From positions 1 to 43,270 of the IMG/VR virus record IMGVR_UViG_3300028556_000003: 43,270 nucleotides of DNA; one strand, written 5' to 3'. The stretch comes from a virus. The notes beneath the pieces are model-generated. The model had not been told where the DNA came from and did no database searches. It was given only the letters and a program-made list of their open reading frames with translations. Position 1 is the first letter of the stretch, and the number at the start of each line of letters is the position of its first letter. This document shows positions 5,459 through 14,829 of this stretch, one piece after another. A program made the position numbers and the translations under genes.

Positions 5459-5914
5459 TTATTTTGTCTCCATAAAATTTTTAATCTCAATTTCTCTACG
5501 ATTTACAAGTCCTTTAATAATTTTACCATCAGCTTTCACATACTTTCTAAAAGCAGTAGCCAAAGCGTTCAAATCAGCTTTTTCAAGTGCAGCTATAATA
5601 GATTCACCTTTGAGGGCGCCTGCTCCGAGATTGTAAGCAAATGAACATAGTGAACAATACACTGCATCATTGAAGTGATATTTGACTTGTAGTGCATCAA
5701 CTGCCGGATATACATGCTTATTTAAATGGTTATTAAGCCAATCATATGCTTGTTCTTCTGTACAAGTATCTCCTTCTTTAACTGCTTTCCCATCTGGATA
5801 ATGAGTTGTTCCAAAAGCAATAGTCCATATTTCTATAGAATCTTTATAAGATTTTAATCTTATACCTTCACAAGTTTTAATTAATAAATCAACAGATTGC
5901 TGTTTTTTAGTCAT
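5459..5914 (-). CDS. Endolysin, GH24 lysozyme (T4/lambdoid type)
   Basis: 151 residues. It hydrolyses the N-acetylmuramic acid-N-acetylglucosamine bond of peptidoglycan at the end of infection. Catalytic positions fit the GH24 pattern E-x8-D-x5-T: Glu16 (CEGIRL), Asp25 (YKD) and Thr31 (WTIAFGTT). The later segments SLCSFAYNLGAGAL and GLVNRREIE are the usual family helices (FNxGxGxL, GLxxRRxxE). Length is normal for the family. No signal peptide is seen, so a holin is expected. AGGAGG lies seven bases before the ATG at 5914; the ATG at 5917 is four bases away and also possible. It sits in the minus-strand accessory operon instead of the late region. Confidence 0.93.
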   Translation of the reverse strand: MTKKQQSVDLLIKTCEGIRLKSYKDSIEIWTIAFGTTHYPDGKAVKEGDTCTEEQAYDWLNNHLNKHVYPAVDALQVKYHFNDAVYCSLCSFAYNLGAGALKGESIIAALEKADLNALATAFRKYVKADGKIIKGLVNRREIEIKNFMETK

Positions 5915-6090
5915 CATTCCACCTCCTCTAAAGAATTCCAATATGTACTATCATACTCATAATTTATCTCTTCTTTTTTTCCTTCATAATCTGAATCTTC
6001 TATCATTTCTTTTGCATGTTCGATAGAATTTGCTTTAATATAAGTCCAAACAGTTATATTATATTTTTCTTTAATTCTAAATGTTTTCAT
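5914..6090 (-). CDS. Hypothetical acidic protein (58 aa)
   Basis: 58 residues starting MKTFRIKEKYNITVWTYIKA, followed by ANSIEHAKEMIEDSDYEG. A beta strand followed by AxSxEHAxEM helix is common in small phage proteins of unknown function. The C-terminus (NSLEEVE) is encoded by the very bases that form the ribosome site of the endolysin gene, and the stop overlaps its start, so the two genes are translationally coupled. Confidence 0.6.
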   Translation of the reverse strand: MKTFRIKEKYNITVWTYIKANSIEHAKEMIEDSDYEGKKEEINYEYDSTYWNSLEEVE

Positions 6091-7981: not shown

Positions 7982-8686
7982 TTATTCACATTCTTTTAAT
8001 AGTTCTAATAATTTCTTAGATTGTTTAATGTAAGATTTTTGTATCGTATCAGCAGCAGCAGCAGCAGCGTAAGTAGCGTAAGTAGCAGCAGCATCAGCAG
8101 CATCAGCAACAGCAGTAGCAGCGTAAGCAACAGCAGCGTAAGTAGCGTAAGTAGCGTAAGTAGCAGCAGCATCAGCAGCATCAGCAGCAGCATCAGCAGC
8201 AGCATCAGCGTAAGTAGCGTAAGTAGCGTAAGTAGCAGCAGCAGTATAAGCACTATTCTTTATAGCAAGCCAATCAATTTTATGACCATCTAATTCATTT
8301 TGAAGATTATCAGCTACAATTTTACATTGAGGATGTTTAGAATTACATTGTGTAGGATCAATTAGTAAAAATATTGCAAATTTATGCCAAACTTTAGATA
8401 AATCTGCTCCAACTTTAATAGACTCTAAAAACTCTAAAGGCCATTCTTTTGCTAATTCATTTGGTAAATTTTCAAATATTTGATCCTCTAATTTTGCTAA
8501 AATTCGTGGGATACCTAATTCAATTTCATAATTTTTATGGTCAGAATCATGAATTGTACAACCAACCGCACACCCTTTTCCATTTTCCCAATAAGTACCT
8601 TTTATGATCTCATCAGCTAAAGAATGTGCTTTAACTCGTTCAATATATTTTTTCTTTATTTTTTCATCATTGTGAAACGCTTTCAT
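7982..8686 (-). CDS. Conserved protein with Ala-rich period-3 repeat tail
   Basis: 234 residues. Residues 1-145 form a conserved domain I know from phage and bacterial hypothetical proteins: MKAFHNDEKIKKKYIERVKA, then AVGCTIHDSDHKNYEIELGI, PRILAKLEDQIFE and WHKFAIFLLIDP. Residues about 148-212 are a low-complexity Ala/Tyr/Thr/Asp tract of three-residue units (ATY, ADA, AAD) that would form a long helix with one face of Ala. The C-terminus SKKLLELLKECE is again conserved. GGAGT precedes the ATG. Conserved Cys and His might bind a metal. The role is unknown. Confidence 0.75.
   Translation of the reverse strand: MKAFHNDEKIKKKYIERVKAHSLADEIIKGTYWENGKGCAVGCTIHDSDHKNYEIELGIPRILAKLEDQIFENLPNELAKEWPLEFLESIKVGADLSKVWHKFAIFLLIDPTQCNSKHPQCKIVADNLQNELDGHKIDWLAIKNSAYTAAATYATYATYADAAADAAADAADAAATYATYATYAAVAYAATAVADAADAAATYATYAAAAAADTIQKSYIKQSKKLLELLKECE
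8048..8246. repeat. Trinucleotide-type tandem repeat inside the 7982 gene
   Basis: About 200 bases made of the units AGC, GTA, ATC and ACA in the +strand, with larger blocks such as GTAAGTAGC and AGCAGCATC repeated several times. It encodes the Ala/Tyr/Thr/Asp helix and keeps no stop in several frames. Slippage is likely to make its length variable between strains. Confidence 0.85.
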
Positions 8687-10760: not shown

Positions 10761-11018
10761 CTCTCATTTCCTTTTTCTCCAGTATATTTTTTTGTGTGTG
10801 TTAAGTGTTTATTCAATCGACGTATTGTCTGTATATATTTAAAATTTTTGTAAATATAAATATAAATATTTATAATTTTTTGCAAAAAACTGTGTCTTTA
10901 TATAATCACAATCTAGCCTTGCGTCTACTGGCGATTCAACCATTTTTTAGCTCATTTACATCCCCGATTTCTAAAGTCGGGGTATTACATTCGGATTGGT
11001 AAATCATTTTTTTATTTA
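10761..11018. other. Intergenic region with strong hairpin
   Basis: No convincing gene. A 65-codon plus-strand frame and a 35-codon minus-strand frame exist but lack ribosome sites and have unlikely composition. The right half holds a conserved-looking hairpin (10962-10982), listed separately; the left half is very AT-rich (ATATTTATAAT type) and may hold a promoter for the genes at 10760 and below. Confidence 0.6.
10905..10995 (+). ncRNA. Orphan structured RNA, possibly IS200/IS605 right end / omega-RNA-like
   Basis: CCCCGATTT (10962-10970), loop CTA, AAGTCGGGG (10974-10982) form a nine-pair hairpin with one G-T pair. It is preceded by GCTCATTTACAT and, further up, CTAGCCTTGCGTCTACTGGC. A terminal CCCCGA/TCGGGG hairpin followed by about ten bases is how right ends of many IS200/IS605 elements, and the 3' ends of TnpB guide RNAs, look. 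No tnpA or tnpB is present in the window, so this would be a relic or a solo RNA. The hairpin is certain; the assignment is tentative. Confidence 0.35.
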
Positions 11019-11252
11019 TCAATATCCAGACCCATTTCTATTTCCCGACCCATCTCCAGACCCATATCCATATCCAGACCCATCTCCATATCCAGATCCA
11101 TCTCCACATCCACATCCACATCCATCTCCATCTCCATATCCAGATCCAGATCCATCTCCATATCCATCTCCATCTCCATATCCAGATCCATATCCATATC
11201 CAGATCCAGATCCATATCCAGATCCATCATTTTTATTCAATGATGAGTCCAT
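11019..11252 (-). CDS. Gly/Ser/Asp/Tyr dipeptide-repeat protein
   Basis: 77 residues: MDSSLNKND followed by about 65 residues of G-x repeats (GSGYGSGSGYGYGSG, and a CGCGCG stretch in the middle), then NRNGSGY and TGA. GAAGGGG lies seven bases before the ATG and the start overlaps the end of the upstream gene by 16 bases, which supports this frame over the Pro-rich plus-strand frame and a Met/Asp frame. Such glycine-rich tracts are flexible and may drive aggregation or sticking. Similar low-complexity proteins occur in phage genomes; function unknown. Confidence 0.55.
   Translation of the reverse strand: MDSSLNKNDGSGYGSGSGYGYGSGYGDGDGYGDGSGSGYGDGDGCGCGCGDGSGYGDGSGYGYGSGDGSGNRNGSGY
11022..11230. 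repeat. Hexanucleotide tandem repeat
   Basis: About 35 near-perfect copies of a six-base unit, CCATAT, CCAGAT, CCATCT or CCACAT on the plus strand. It is free of stops in several frames on both strands. It encodes the Gly-x repeats of the 11019 gene. Slippage should make its length variable. Confidence 0.9.
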
Positions 11253-11611
11253 ATTTTTACCCCTTCTATAGATTTTTTTGCAATTTCTGAAACTTTTAAA
11301 ATTTCAAATCCATTCGGAGATGTTAGTGTAACTTCTGTTACTTTCTGAGGAAATTTACAATTTTCTGGTTTTGATGTTCCTTTTTCCGCTAATTCACTCA
11401 AAGAAGCAGCTCCATCCCAGTACCAAATTCTCCTTGCATTATTTAATATTTTACAAGTCTCAGTACTTTTTTCATTTAAGTATCCAGCAAATACCCCCAT
11501 TGAATATGTTCTTATAATCACATAATTATCACTCATATTTACAGATTGTTTATCTTCAAAATTTGCAACAAATTTTTCAACTGCTTTAAAAAACTCTTCT
11601 TTATCTATCAT
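11237..11611 (-). CDS. DUF6948-like phage protein
   Basis: 124 residues. The strings YVIIRTYSMGVFAGYL, ARRIWYWDGAASLSELAEKG and SKPENCKFPQKV, then KKSIEGVKIW, match a family of phage proteins known as DUF6948 (VIVRTYSAGVxAGxL, RRIWYWxGAxSLSxLAxxG, PxxCxxP, I.GVxxW). The fold is probably a small beta-rich domain; function unknown. Ribosome site AAGGAG lies before the start. It is downstream of the degenerate hammerhead-like element. Confidence 0.8.
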   Translation of the reverse strand: MIDKEEFFKAVEKFVANFEDKQSVNMSDNYVIIRTYSMGVFAGYLNEKSTETCKILNNARRIWYWDGAASLSELAEKGTSKPENCKFPQKVTEVTLTSPNGFEILKVSEIAKKSIEGVKIWTHH

Positions 11612-11635: not shown

Positions 11636-11666
11636 TTCAGTTATCCAGCAATTTTGGATAACTGAA
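11636..11666. promoter_or_regulatory. Perfect 11-bp inverted repeat
   Basis: TTCAGTTATCC (11636-11646) and GGATAACTGAA (11656-11666) are exact inverse copies with a nine-base loop. It lies in the leader of the 11237 gene, next to the hammerhead-like half. It may be an RNA hairpin, a weak terminator (A/T-rich flanks but no strong U-run) or an operator. Confidence 0.7.
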
Positions 11667-11711
11667 CTCATCAGTGTACGAACATACATGCAGACACTCA
11701 GTGATTACTCG
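11664..11711 (-). ncRNA. Degenerate hammerhead-ribozyme-like element
   Basis: On the minus strand GUC (11695-11693), a stem I of six positions with one C-A mismatch and one G-U pair (UGCAUG / CGUACA), the core CUGAUGA (11674-11668) and GUUC (11667-11664) are present; 21 bases are identical to the functional-looking copy at 12296-12316. The required GAAA box is replaced by UAAU (11707-11704) and the stem II partner GAAC by CGAG. It should therefore not cleave; I read it as a decayed duplicate. Confidence 0.6.
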
Positions 11712-11718
11712 ACATATT

Positions 11719-11946
11719 TTATTCTCCTTTTTCTGTCATTAATTCATATAAATGTGTTAAATTTTTAGCTATGTATTCTGCTTTGATAAAATCCGAGTCA
11801 CAATCATTCTCTACAACTAAATAGTGATGTTTACCACCCTTCATTTTGTCATGATATCCAATTTGTTTTTCTTTTAGAGAATGTCCAATGCCAAATTCCA
11901 TAGTGATAAATTCTTTTATTTTCTTTTTTGCTAGATATGTGCGCAT
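11719..11946 (-). CDS. Hypothetical protein (75 aa)
   Basis: 75 residues starting MRTYLAKKKIKEFITMEFGI. The middle is beta-rich (HHYLVVENDCDSDFI) and the end helical (KAEYIAKNLTHLYELMTEKG). AAGGA lies nine bases before the start. Not recognised. Second gene of the minus-strand operon. Confidence 0.6.
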   Translation of the reverse strand: MRTYLAKKKIKEFITMEFGIGHSLKEKQIGYHDKMKGGKHHYLVVENDCDSDFIKAEYIAKNLTHLYELMTEKGE

Positions 11947-11959
11947 ATTGTATAATCCT

Positions 11960-12274
11960 TTATTTAAAAATTGATTTCTTTTTCAGACCTTTTTTTAATT
12001 TGAAAGGTTTTTGATAATTATTGTAAAAATCTACACATTTATTTAATATTTTTAATTTATTTTTATTTTGTCTAAATTTTTTCTCATTAATTTCAGAGGG
12101 AATAATATTTAGTTCATTTCGAAGATTAAATATTTTCTCAGCAACGCTGTCATTAGCTTTCCATTTATTTTCATTGTTTTCTATAGTTGAATGAAAAATA
12201 TAATTTTTATCATTTGATATTTTTTTCAAAAAAGTATTTCTTACAGATATTGCTAAGTTTTTTGCTCGTTTCAT
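11960..12274 (-). CDS. First gene of the minus operon, very basic protein (104 aa)
   Basis: 104 residues from the ATG at 12272-12274, which has GGAG nine bases upstream. An earlier ATG at 12304 lies inside the hammerhead core (CUGAUGA) and is less likely to be used. The protein is strongly basic, rich in Lys and Asn (KKFRQNKNKLKILNK, GLKKKSIFK) and probably helical, so it may bind nucleic acid. No family is recognised. Its mRNA would start, after ribozyme cleavage, at base 12325, about 50 bases before the start codon. Confidence 0.55.
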   Translation of the reverse strand: MKRAKNLAISVRNTFLKKISNDKNYIFHSTIENNENKWKANDSVAEKIFNLRNELNIIPSEINEKKFRQNKNKLKILNKCVDFYNNYQKPFKLKKGLKKKSIFK

Positions 12275-12296
12275 TTTAAAATTCTCCAATTTTATT

Positions 12297-12350
12297 GAAC
12301 TCATCAGTGTACGAACTTACGTACAGACAGTTTGTTAAGCTGTTTCGTTC
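12297..12350 (-). ncRNA. Type II hammerhead ribozyme
   Basis: Read 5' to 3' on the minus strand: stem II half GAAC (12350-12347), core GAAA (12346-12343), stem III CAG (12342-12340), loop of nine, CUG (12330-12328), cleavage triplet GUC (12328-12326), stem I UGUACG (12325-12320), loop UAAGUU, CGUACA (12313-12308), core CUGAUGA (12307-12301), stem II half GUUC (12300-12297). Stem I has six Watson-Crick pairs, stem II four, stem III four including the core A-U pair. All conserved core bases are present; stems I and III are closed, stem II open (type II). Cleavage is predicted between 12326 and 12325. It lies in the 5' leader of the minus-strand operon. Confidence 0.88.
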
Positions 12351-12479
12351 TATTAACCAGATCAGCTTTCGCCCGCGCCATCTCTTCGACTAGAGACCGC
12401 CTAACCCTGTCCTTTTTTTTGGTTTCAGGGGGTTTTTAGAGCTTTCGATATTTTTTCGTAACTAGCAGCTCACATAAAT

Positions 12480-12508
12480 ACTGTAACATGCAAATATTTG
12501 CAAGTCAA
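12480..12508 (-). promoter_or_regulatory. Left early promoter with operator
   Basis: On the minus strand: -35 TTGACT (12508-12503), spacer of 17 bases, -10 TACAGT (12485-12480) with an extended TG before it. The spacer contains the perfect 14-base palindrome TGCAAATATTTGCA (12489-12502). Transcription would start near 12473 and run leftward through the hammerhead into the accessory operon. A repressor bound to the palindrome would sit between -35 and -10 and block polymerase. The same 22-base block occurs at 14491-14512. Confidence 0.8.
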
Positions 12509-12907: not shown

Positions 12908-13054
12908 GGAGCGGCAGCGACGAGCATAAAGAGCCGAGCGGCGTTTGAGCACTGTGCGAAGTGTATTTAAGAATAAGAATATACTATATAAGCGTTAGTA
13001 TTTTTTTTTTTATTTAACTGGCAGTAGTAAAAGTTTTTGTCGTACTTACGTTTT

Positions 13055-13186
13055 TACTGACATCCATACTGACACTTTTACTGACATCCATACTGACATT
13101 TTACTGACATTTTTTTGCGTATTTCCCAGTAAATAGAGTGTACTACTATGTTGATACTGACAGTCAGTACTGACATCATACTGACA
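13055..13186. repeat. Iteron array (eight copies of TACTGACA)
   Basis: TACTGACA starts at 13055, 13067, 13079, 13091, 13102, 13155, 13168 and 13179. Spacing inside the two groups is 11-13 bases, about one helical turn, so a protein could bind all copies on one face. Three of the copies extend to TACTGACATC. An AT-rich stretch (TTTTTTTGCGTATTT) lies between the groups. Such arrays mark origins of plasmids and phages and also bind their initiator for autoregulation. The gene starting at 13280 is the obvious candidate for the binding protein. Confidence 0.75.
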
Positions 13187-13204
13187 TTCTCATATGCAGC
13201 TAAC

Positions 13205-13279: not shown

Positions 13280-13912
13280 ATGATAAGTCATTCAAAAACT
13301 AAGGAATATATGAATATGCTACAATTCCTAAAAAGAAATAAGTTTGAAAATCCAGGAGCTTTAAGCTTAATTCTTTTTGAAATATACGTAGATTCAAAAT
13401 ATCCTTCAAATTATCATAGTATTCCAGCAAATTTATTAAAAGAAAGAAAAATTATTCCTTGTAAAAGCTATAGAAATTTTTCGGAGTTTCGTTTGAAAAT
13501 GACAAGTACTGGAATTTTGATTTGCATGGCTGATGCAGAGGAACAACAAGATAAGAATCCTAATTATAAAGCAGGAATGTTTAAATATGGCCCTACTATT
13601 AAAAAGTATATTGAAAAAGCTTTATTTTCAAAATCTAGTATGATTGAACGTTTAGATAAAAAAGCTGATTTTGAAGATTTACAAATTCTTGAAAAAAGAA
13701 TGAATGATAGAATAGATCTTGCTGCTACAAAAGAGGAATTGGAAAATGTAAAATTACGTTTGTCAGAGATTGAAAACAATTTTATGAGAATGATGTTATA
13801 TTTTATGCCTCCTGACACAGATGAACGTCGTAAAATAATAGAAAAATATCAATTTGATAAGGACGAATGTATAAAACAATTAAATTTAGAATCTAAAAAT
13901 AAAACTAGTTGA
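13280..13912 (+). CDS. Putative DNA-binding protein; candidate replication initiator or repressor
   Basis: 210 residues. The N-terminal 100 residues look like a winged-helix-type domain (MLQFLKRNKFENPGALSLIL, then KSYRNFSEFRLKMTSTGI), and about residues 115-175 are a charged helix with coiled-coil character (IERLDKKADFEDLQILEKRM, later LRLSEIENN). No named family is recognised. Its position right after eight iterons and its own promoter suggests that it binds them, as Rep proteins do; a phage repressor for the TGCAAATATTTGCA operators is the alternative. It is the only good candidate for either role in the window. Confidence 0.55.
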   Translation: MISHSKTKEYMNMLQFLKRNKFENPGALSLILFEIYVDSKYPSNYHSIPANLLKERKIIPCKSYRNFSEFRLKMTSTGILICMADAEEQQDKNPNYKAGMFKYGPTIKKYIEKALFSKSSMIERLDKKADFEDLQILEKRMNDRIDLAATKEELENVKLRLSEIENNFMRMMLYFMPPDTDERRKIIEKYQFDKDECIKQLNLESKNKTS

Positions 13913-14490: not shown

Positions 14491-14519
14491 TTGACTTGCA
14501 AATATTTGCATGATATCTT
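14491..14519 (+). promoter_or_regulatory. Right early promoter with operator
   Basis: -35 TTGACT (14491-14496), 17-base spacer, -10 TATCTT (14514-14519) with extended TG. The spacer holds the perfect palindrome TGCAAATATTTGCA (14497-14510). Transcription would start near 14526 and cover the genes 14596-17433. It matches the left promoter over 22 bases in inverted orientation, so one repressor can be expected to control both. Confidence 0.85.
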
Positions 14520-14528
14520 CTAAGAAGA

Positions 14529-14577
14529 GCAAGGAAGTTCTTGCTTAAAATCAACTGTCAAGAATTTCTTGACAGTT
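14529..14577 (+). promoter_or_regulatory. Leader hairpins upstream of the csrA operon
   Basis: GCAAG-GAAGTT-CTTGC (14529-14544) forms a five-pair hairpin that presents AAGGAAG at its loop, like a CsrA site. AACTGTCAAGAA (14553-14564), one T, TTCTTGACAGTT (14566-14577) is a perfect 12-base inverted repeat: an operator, or an RNA hairpin just above the ribosome site ACAAGGAGG (14582-14590). That site also has the ACARGGA core of the CsrA consensus. Self-control by the CsrA encoded two cistrons on is plausible. Confidence 0.6.
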
Positions 14578-14595
14578 AAAAACAAGGAGGTTTTT

Positions 14596-14829
14596 ATGGA
14601 TCATATAGCATTGATAAAAAAATTGGATAAACGCGGATATTTTATAAGACAAGAAGAAGGTTATTTTTATGTTAATAAAGAAAATAATATTCTTAAATGG
14701 TATGTTAACGAGAATGGAAAAGTAAAATTTGCATGTTTGATAAGAAATAATGGTGAGAGAGAAAATATTACAAATTTTTCTCTTAATGTCCTCAAATCAA
14801 TTCTCAATTTATTGGAGTTACAATGTTGA
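14596..14829 (+). CDS. Hypothetical protein (77 aa), first gene of the right early operon
   Basis: 77 residues from the ATG at 14596 with AAGGAGG six bases upstream; a non-ATG start at 14569 would lie in the palindrome. It begins MDHIALIKKLDKRGYFIRQE and alternates short strands (GYFYVNKEN, ILKWYVNENGKVKFA) with a C-terminal helix (LNVLKSILNLLEL). Family not recognised. Its end overlaps the csrA start by seven bases. Confidence 0.6.
   Translation: MDHIALIKKLDKRGYFIRQEEGYFYVNKENNILKWYVNENGKVKFACLIRNNGERENITNFSLNVLKSILNLLELQC

Follow-up and report, generated by a model that had tools for sequence, protein, structure and literature searches.

Hammerhead ribozymes are common in phages. In the type II hammerheads described from phages and bacteria (Perreault et al. 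2011, PMC3088659; RF02276), closed stems I and III and an open stem II surround the core elements CUGAUGA, GAAA and GUC, and in the published consensus loop I forms a pseudoknot with the tail that follows stem II. These ribozymes usually lie between genes, just upstream of a small phage gene and with more than one copy per operon; hammerheads arranged in tandem in phages are active in vitro, and for one set cleavage has also been seen in E. coli (PMC3088659). In the haloviruses HF1 and HF2, HHphage precedes the start codon of an early-region gene by 13 nt (PMC3088659). The literature that we found still treats what hammerhead ribozymes do in phage and bacterial DNA as an open question.

The locus analysed here lies in a 43,270-nt stretch of viral DNA (IMG/VR record IMGVR_UViG_3300028556_000003, positions 1 to 43,270; hereafter the window). 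The record is complete and phage-like, carrying a terminal repeat of 127 bp and contractile-tail genes. Read directly on the minus strand from 12350 to 12297, the motif at this locus consists of GAAC, GAAACAG, CUUAACAAA, CUGUC, UGUACG, UAAGUU, CGUACA, CUGAUGA and GUUC, giving the type II order of GAAA, stem III, GUC, stem I and CUGAUGA (Table 1). By sequence and descriptor scan, the core shows zero mismatches, with CUGAUGA, GAAA and a UH cleavage triplet (GUC) all present, and three helices of 6, 4 and 4 pairs surround it, including the G10.1-C11.1 and A15.1-U16.1 pairs. This letter-by-letter reading bears out the original prediction of a complete type II hammerhead on the minus strand: closed stems I and III and an open stem II, as in the described phage and bacterial examples, match the order of the strands, and GUC and stem I place the cut site where it was predicted, between 12326 and 12325. 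An exact-core descriptor scan of the whole window returned no further complete type II hammerhead. Placement ahead of a start codon resembles that of HHphage, which differs in being a structural variant of archaeal viruses, discussed in connection with high-salt habitats, whereas the core in the window is canonical (PMC3088659).

Table 1. Coordinates of features in and around the hammerhead locus.
Feature	Position	Strand	Basis or remark
Type II hammerhead ribozyme	12297..12350	(-)	Sequence, descriptor scan, null model, covariance model
Stem II, open	GAAC 12350-12347 / GUUC 12300-12297	(-)	4 pairs
GAAA core	12346-12343	(-)	Last A shared with stem III
Stem III	ACAG 12343-12340 / CUGU 12330-12327	(-)	4 pairs, closed by loop CUUAACAAA
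Stem I	UGUACG 12325-12320 / CGUACA 12313-12308	(-)	6 pairs, loop UAAGUU
CUGAUGA core	12307-12301	(-)	Sequence
Predicted cleavage site	12325..12326	(-)	After C12326 of GUC, judged from where GUC lies with respect to stem I
Predicted 5' cleavage product (leader RNA, ~148 nt)	12326..12473	(-)	Predicted start and cut
Promoter-like site TTGACT-17-TACAGT, TG before -10 hexamer	12480..12508	(-)	Sequence; start expected near 12473
Operator-like palindrome TGCAAATATTTGCA, perfect, 14 bp, inside promoter	12489..12502	(.)	Sequence
Second, rightward promoter with the same operator-like block	14491..14519	(+)	Sequence
GGAG ribosome-binding site of first gene	12287..12290	(-)	Sequence; 13-16 nt before AUG 12274-12272
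First operon gene, 104 aa, no known family	11960..12274	(-)	Family and relative searches
Second operon gene, 75 aa, no known family	11719..11946	(-)	Family search
Degenerate second hammerhead copy	11658..11728	(-)	Similarity, covariance model, sequence
Terminator-like 12-bp hairpin, continuous with degenerate copy	11636..11666	(-)	Sequence
Third operon gene, DUF6948	11237..11611	(-)	E 4.9e-23
Endolysin in leftward run	5459-5941	(-)	

In simulated first-order Markov sequence with the window's composition, exact-core type II motifs with stems of at least 6/4/4 pairs occurred four times in 2,600 Mb (60,094 window-equivalents), or about 7e-5 per window; for the loosest descriptor (stems of at least 3/2/3 pairs), about 0.03 are expected per window. 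Plain folding of the 54-nt motif was no better than that of shuffled sequences (z -0.27), a result that is weak either way, as shuffles do not test the core. Relatives were gathered from IMG/VR by a degenerate pattern, yielding at least 120 stretches (loci L004-L123); among the matches listed, all three stems were present in 110 of the 130 pattern matches examined, two of the 110 being the window's own site. From 40 IMG/VR type II hammerheads with a four-pair stem II and a short loop I, leaving the window out, we built a covariance model (R1), in whose alignment 97.6% of cells show the pair formed and 211 double changes occur. R1 assigned the window site 58.5 bits (E 3.8e-14), with the runner-up in the window at 16.7 bits; this score is partly built in, as the 40 members were picked by their exact core letters, and the Markov null is independent of that choice. 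Outside the core, the window site shares an A just before stem II (38/40 members), a U first in loop I (39/40), an A third in loop I (27/40) and an A after stem II (32/40), while its loop I comprises 6 nt rather than the 5 nt seen in 34 of the 40 relatives.

A gathering-level Rfam scan of the whole window brought no family to threshold, RF02276 included, and a permissive scan of the leader returned only RF00008 (18 bits, E 0.23), with different partners for stems II and III. An Rfam match had originally been proposed as a check on this motif and its absence as part of a refutation. No match came, yet this test turned out to be unfair: in a positive control, Rfam detected hammerheads in one of 16 loci with descriptor-verified type II (L078, two copies) and missed the other 15. 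Because the Rfam type II model misses most comparable phage-contig hammerheads, the missing match is not evidence against the window site. Several IMG/VR loci (L026, L058, L019, L045 and others) represent a short-loop type II sub-architecture that stays below the gathering score in all Rfam 15 models; loop I is mostly 5 nt and starts with U, and the four-pair stem II has an A on both sides. This short-loop form does not depend on the loop I/tail pseudoknot of the published consensus, and Rfam misses it. The pseudoknotted majority of type II hammerheads form four or more pairs of this kind. In the window, nothing better than three or four weak pairs was found for such a pseudoknot; read by eye, GUU could pair with AAU directly after stem II, and AGUU alternatively with a more distant AAUU, with a G-U pair in both cases. 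The window site differs from the described phage and bacterial type II hammerheads (PMC3088659) in its short loop, four-pair stem II, apparent lack of a strong loop I pseudoknot and score below the RF02276 gathering level, and resembles the short-loop IMG/VR sites (L026, L058, L060 and others) in stem lengths, U-first loop I, A residues flanking stem II and a start codon about 24 nt downstream. Judged by its letters, the R1 score and the Markov null, it is a true member of a known ribozyme class, in the short-loop form with a four-pair stem II, and is predicted to cleave. Rfam's present models overlook this common sub-architecture.

Similarity searching revealed a second copy of the motif, in which 34 nt (11696-11663) are 91% identical to the part of the intact hammerhead comprising stem I and CUGAUGAGUUC (E 1.8e-8); R1 scores this copy at 16.7 bits (E 0.018). 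It is placed after the stop codon of the second operon gene and runs straight into the terminator-like hairpin. CUGAUGAGUUC is perfectly kept, the stem I palindrome is imperfect (a C-A mismatch) and the GAAA strand is lost, with AAAA at best, which rules the copy out as an active type II or type III hammerhead. As the strand due to supply GAAA is degenerate, we take it as probably a decayed, inactive hammerhead.

The same comparison bears on whether the intact motif could be a chance resemblance, in which stem I would be a DNA palindrome (TGTACG-N6-CGTACA) serving as an operator or other binding site for a protein, or else a hairpin with a different function in the RNA, next to an accidental core. 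The two copies share stem I and CUGAUGAGUUC and not the GAAA strand, both lie just ahead of a gene, and a 6-bp palindrome is a common operator form. This explanation is nonetheless highly improbable given the null rate of 7e-5 per window and the R1 E value of 3.8e-14; moreover, an imperfect palindrome beside a perfect CUGAUGAGUUC in the second copy is the opposite of what an operator would lead one to expect. Taking both copies as hammerheads by origin, the intact and the decayed copy bracket the first two operon genes, a layout also reported for phage hammerheads (PMC3088659), and the analogy suggests that hammerheads may once have flanked a two-gene cassette, like the tandem hammerheads of other phages. 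In the triple hammerheads around ardA of Agrobacterium tumefaciens (PMC3088659), the copies cleave, whereas the second copy in the window lacks its GAAA strand and the bracketed genes belong to no known family.

The leftward gene run begins at the hammerhead, and the operon has a GC content of 27%. The original description of this operon as early is insecure: because the same leftward run encodes an endolysin, the operon may not be purely early. No relatives of the first gene were found in IMG/VR or phage records; an apparent 40% identity to the protein following the L123 hammerhead in a multiple alignment was an artefact, as BLASTP gives no alignment. The portal protein has relatives in Bdellovibrio phage phi1422 (54.5%) and in six IMG/VR contigs (58-72%), and no hammerhead was present in the searched DNA of these portal relatives, some of those contigs being fragments. 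Leader DNA had no match in phage records, nor did GTTCGTACACTGATGAG in IMG/VR; a homologous locus with the same leader was found neither in these two collections nor among the portal-protein relatives, and host genomes contained no relative. Elsewhere in the window, repeated ACTGACAT/TACTGACATCC units resembling replication-origin iterons occupy 13040-13190, upstream of a gene at 13280-13912 (+). A minus-strand frame at 11012-11252 encodes Gly-Ser/Gly-Tyr/Gly-Asp repeats from 6-nt GGATCT/GGATAT units, and a 234-aa frame at 7982-8686 (-) contains an Ala-rich tract in which GCTACTTAC and GCTGCTGAT units recur.

Upstream, the promoter-like site supports the predicted placement of the hammerhead between promoter and first start codon, at spacings close to those originally given: about 125 nt from the promoter, or about 130 nt from the -10 hexamer to stem II (predicted, about 120 nt), and 22 nt from stem II to AUG (predicted, about 25 nt). 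As to the operator control also proposed, the perfect palindrome and a 22-bp block (12487-12508) that recurs exactly at 14491-14512 (+), with none expected in shuffles for a 22-mer, make control by a putative repressor plausible; a repressor shared by the leftward and rightward promoters is a plausible candidate arrangement. A descriptor scan found no hammerhead in the rightward (14491) leader. In its stead, a strong hairpin (AACUGUCAAGAA-UUUC-UUGACAGUU) lies at 14540-14597 (+), just ahead of the ribosome site. A separate element at 12700-12609 (-) combines a near-consensus promoter (TTGACA-17-TATAAA) with, about 56 nt later, a 13-bp hairpin and a T run; it could possibly encode a small RNA with UUAUUCUCC, complementary to the phage's GGAGAAUAA ribosome-site sequences, or else reflect a short frame on the other strand.

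Comparison with the IMG/VR sites showed how uncommon this placement is. Among the matches listed, an upstream frame ends no more than 10 nt before stem II in 109 of 126 sites, as opposed to 7.5% of random places, with the count permitting up to 12 nt of overlap and frames called by a crude rule rather than a gene finder. Likewise among the matches listed, 97 of 125 sites have a start codon and ribosome site no more than 120 nt downstream (random places, 25%), and the median distance from stem II to the start codon is 24 nt, with about 20-31 nt taken as the range characteristic of intercistronic sites. Several apparent exceptions in the family prove to follow a small frame. In this set, phage type II hammerheads fit almost exactly into the space separating tandem genes and are nearly always intercistronic. 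The window site, at 22 nt, shows the usual downstream spacing but has no gene upstream on the same strand, setting it apart from the 109 sites close behind a stop codon and, at the head of an operon, from the intercistronic hammerheads described previously (PMC3088659). Such a head-of-transcript position is rare and unusual. Of the novelty originally claimed, only this placement is unusual, since hammerheads directly upstream of phage genes, including early-region genes, were already known (PMC3088659). In the survey loci (L004-L123), hammerheads precede, among others, genes for ArdA, GemA, RusA resolvases, a Mu-type transposase and a DNA polymerase processivity factor. The known contexts of hammerheads thus already extend to genes whose expression is normally early. 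Fourteen loci among the matches listed carry two to eight hammerheads.

We next consider the leader (12326..12473), which has more GC than the operon and is folded (whole-leader z = -2.5). The hammerhead fold itself amounts to -9.7 kcal/mol, compared with a family mean of -19.9, and its stems are rich in A and U. Holding this fold in the leader costs 6.5 kcal/mol above the predicted minimum, with 14% of the family as bad or worse, and the predicted minimum-energy leader does not contain it. Because this cost exceeds that in 86% of relatives, the models suggest that folding may be slow, and the original statement that every operon mRNA would cut itself is not supported in that form. Taken further, the hammerhead could be real by descent and now slow or inactive in the leader, a relic like the second copy: the upstream leader would sequester the strands of GAAA and stem III (AAGCUG with CAGCUU, for instance), the stems are weak, the fold is costly and missing from the minimum-energy prediction, and the GAAA strand is already gone from the second copy. 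We regard such a relic as unlikely, since it should have lost some of the core bases, the 14 stem pairs or the flanking bases typical of the sub-family, all of which are still present, and since a context cost above 2.6 kcal/mol is also paid by about half of the family.

The leader also contains a frame of 25 codons (MARAKADLVNRTKQLNKLSVRKFVH; AUG at 12381), open over 12381-12301 (-) and ending in tandem stops (UGAUGA) within CUGAUGA. It could in principle specify a leader peptide whose translation through the motif controls the operon, with ribosomes blocking the hammerhead, but we hold this to be very improbable. Its sole purine-rich stretch abuts the AUG with zero spacing, the AUG is inside a predicted hairpin, about half of the third codon positions are G or C in contrast to the 27% GC of the operon, and an open run of such length is unremarkable. 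In addition, all differences from the second copy in the aligned frame change amino acids. The frame is probably fortuitous.

Weighing these readings, we judge it likely that the motif is an authentic type II hammerhead acting in cis within the leader at the 5' end of the leftward operon, where it would probably serve as a leader-processing site. Hammerhead cleavage leaves a 2',3'-cyclic phosphate upstream (here, C12326) and a 5'-OH downstream (U12325). Transcription would start near 12473 at the operator-overlapped promoter and, once CUGAUGAGUUC has been transcribed, the RNA could fold and cut after C12326. The upstream product would be a leader RNA of about 148 nt with the stem III hairpin at its 3' end and a 2',3'-cyclic phosphate; the downstream product, the operon mRNA, would have a 5'-OH and begin directly with the stem I hairpin, 51 nt before the AUG. 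Each product would gain a hairpin at its new end because the type II scissile bond lies between the closed stems III and I. In bacteria, a 5'-OH end and a 5'-terminal hairpin each slow 5'-end-dependent decay. The likeliest benefit would be a uniform 5' end offering poor entry for such decay, together with removal of the structured leader. Opening of the ribosome site by cleavage was ruled out, with opening costs of 4.3 kcal/mol before and 4.2 kcal/mol after the cut; as access is unchanged, no gain at translation is predicted.

For phages more broadly, we tentatively propose that type II hammerheads may be used as self-acting end-makers, whose cut would leave one hairpin on the 3' tip of the upstream RNA and another on the 5' tip of the mRNA downstream. 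In the window the device would stand first in an operator-controlled operon, freeing a separate leader RNA and leaving a hairpin-capped 5'-OH operon mRNA; the literature that we found describes no leader control of this kind. An operon-head hammerhead with a promoter nearby and no upstream gene represents a cleaner test case than intercistronic ones, because the processing of the leader is not entangled there with that of a message from a preceding gene. The placement rule emerging from the survey gives a simple testable prediction, and its pattern of a stop codon just before and a start codon about 24 nt after the ribozyme suggests that the ribozyme helps to shape the ends of messages between genes.
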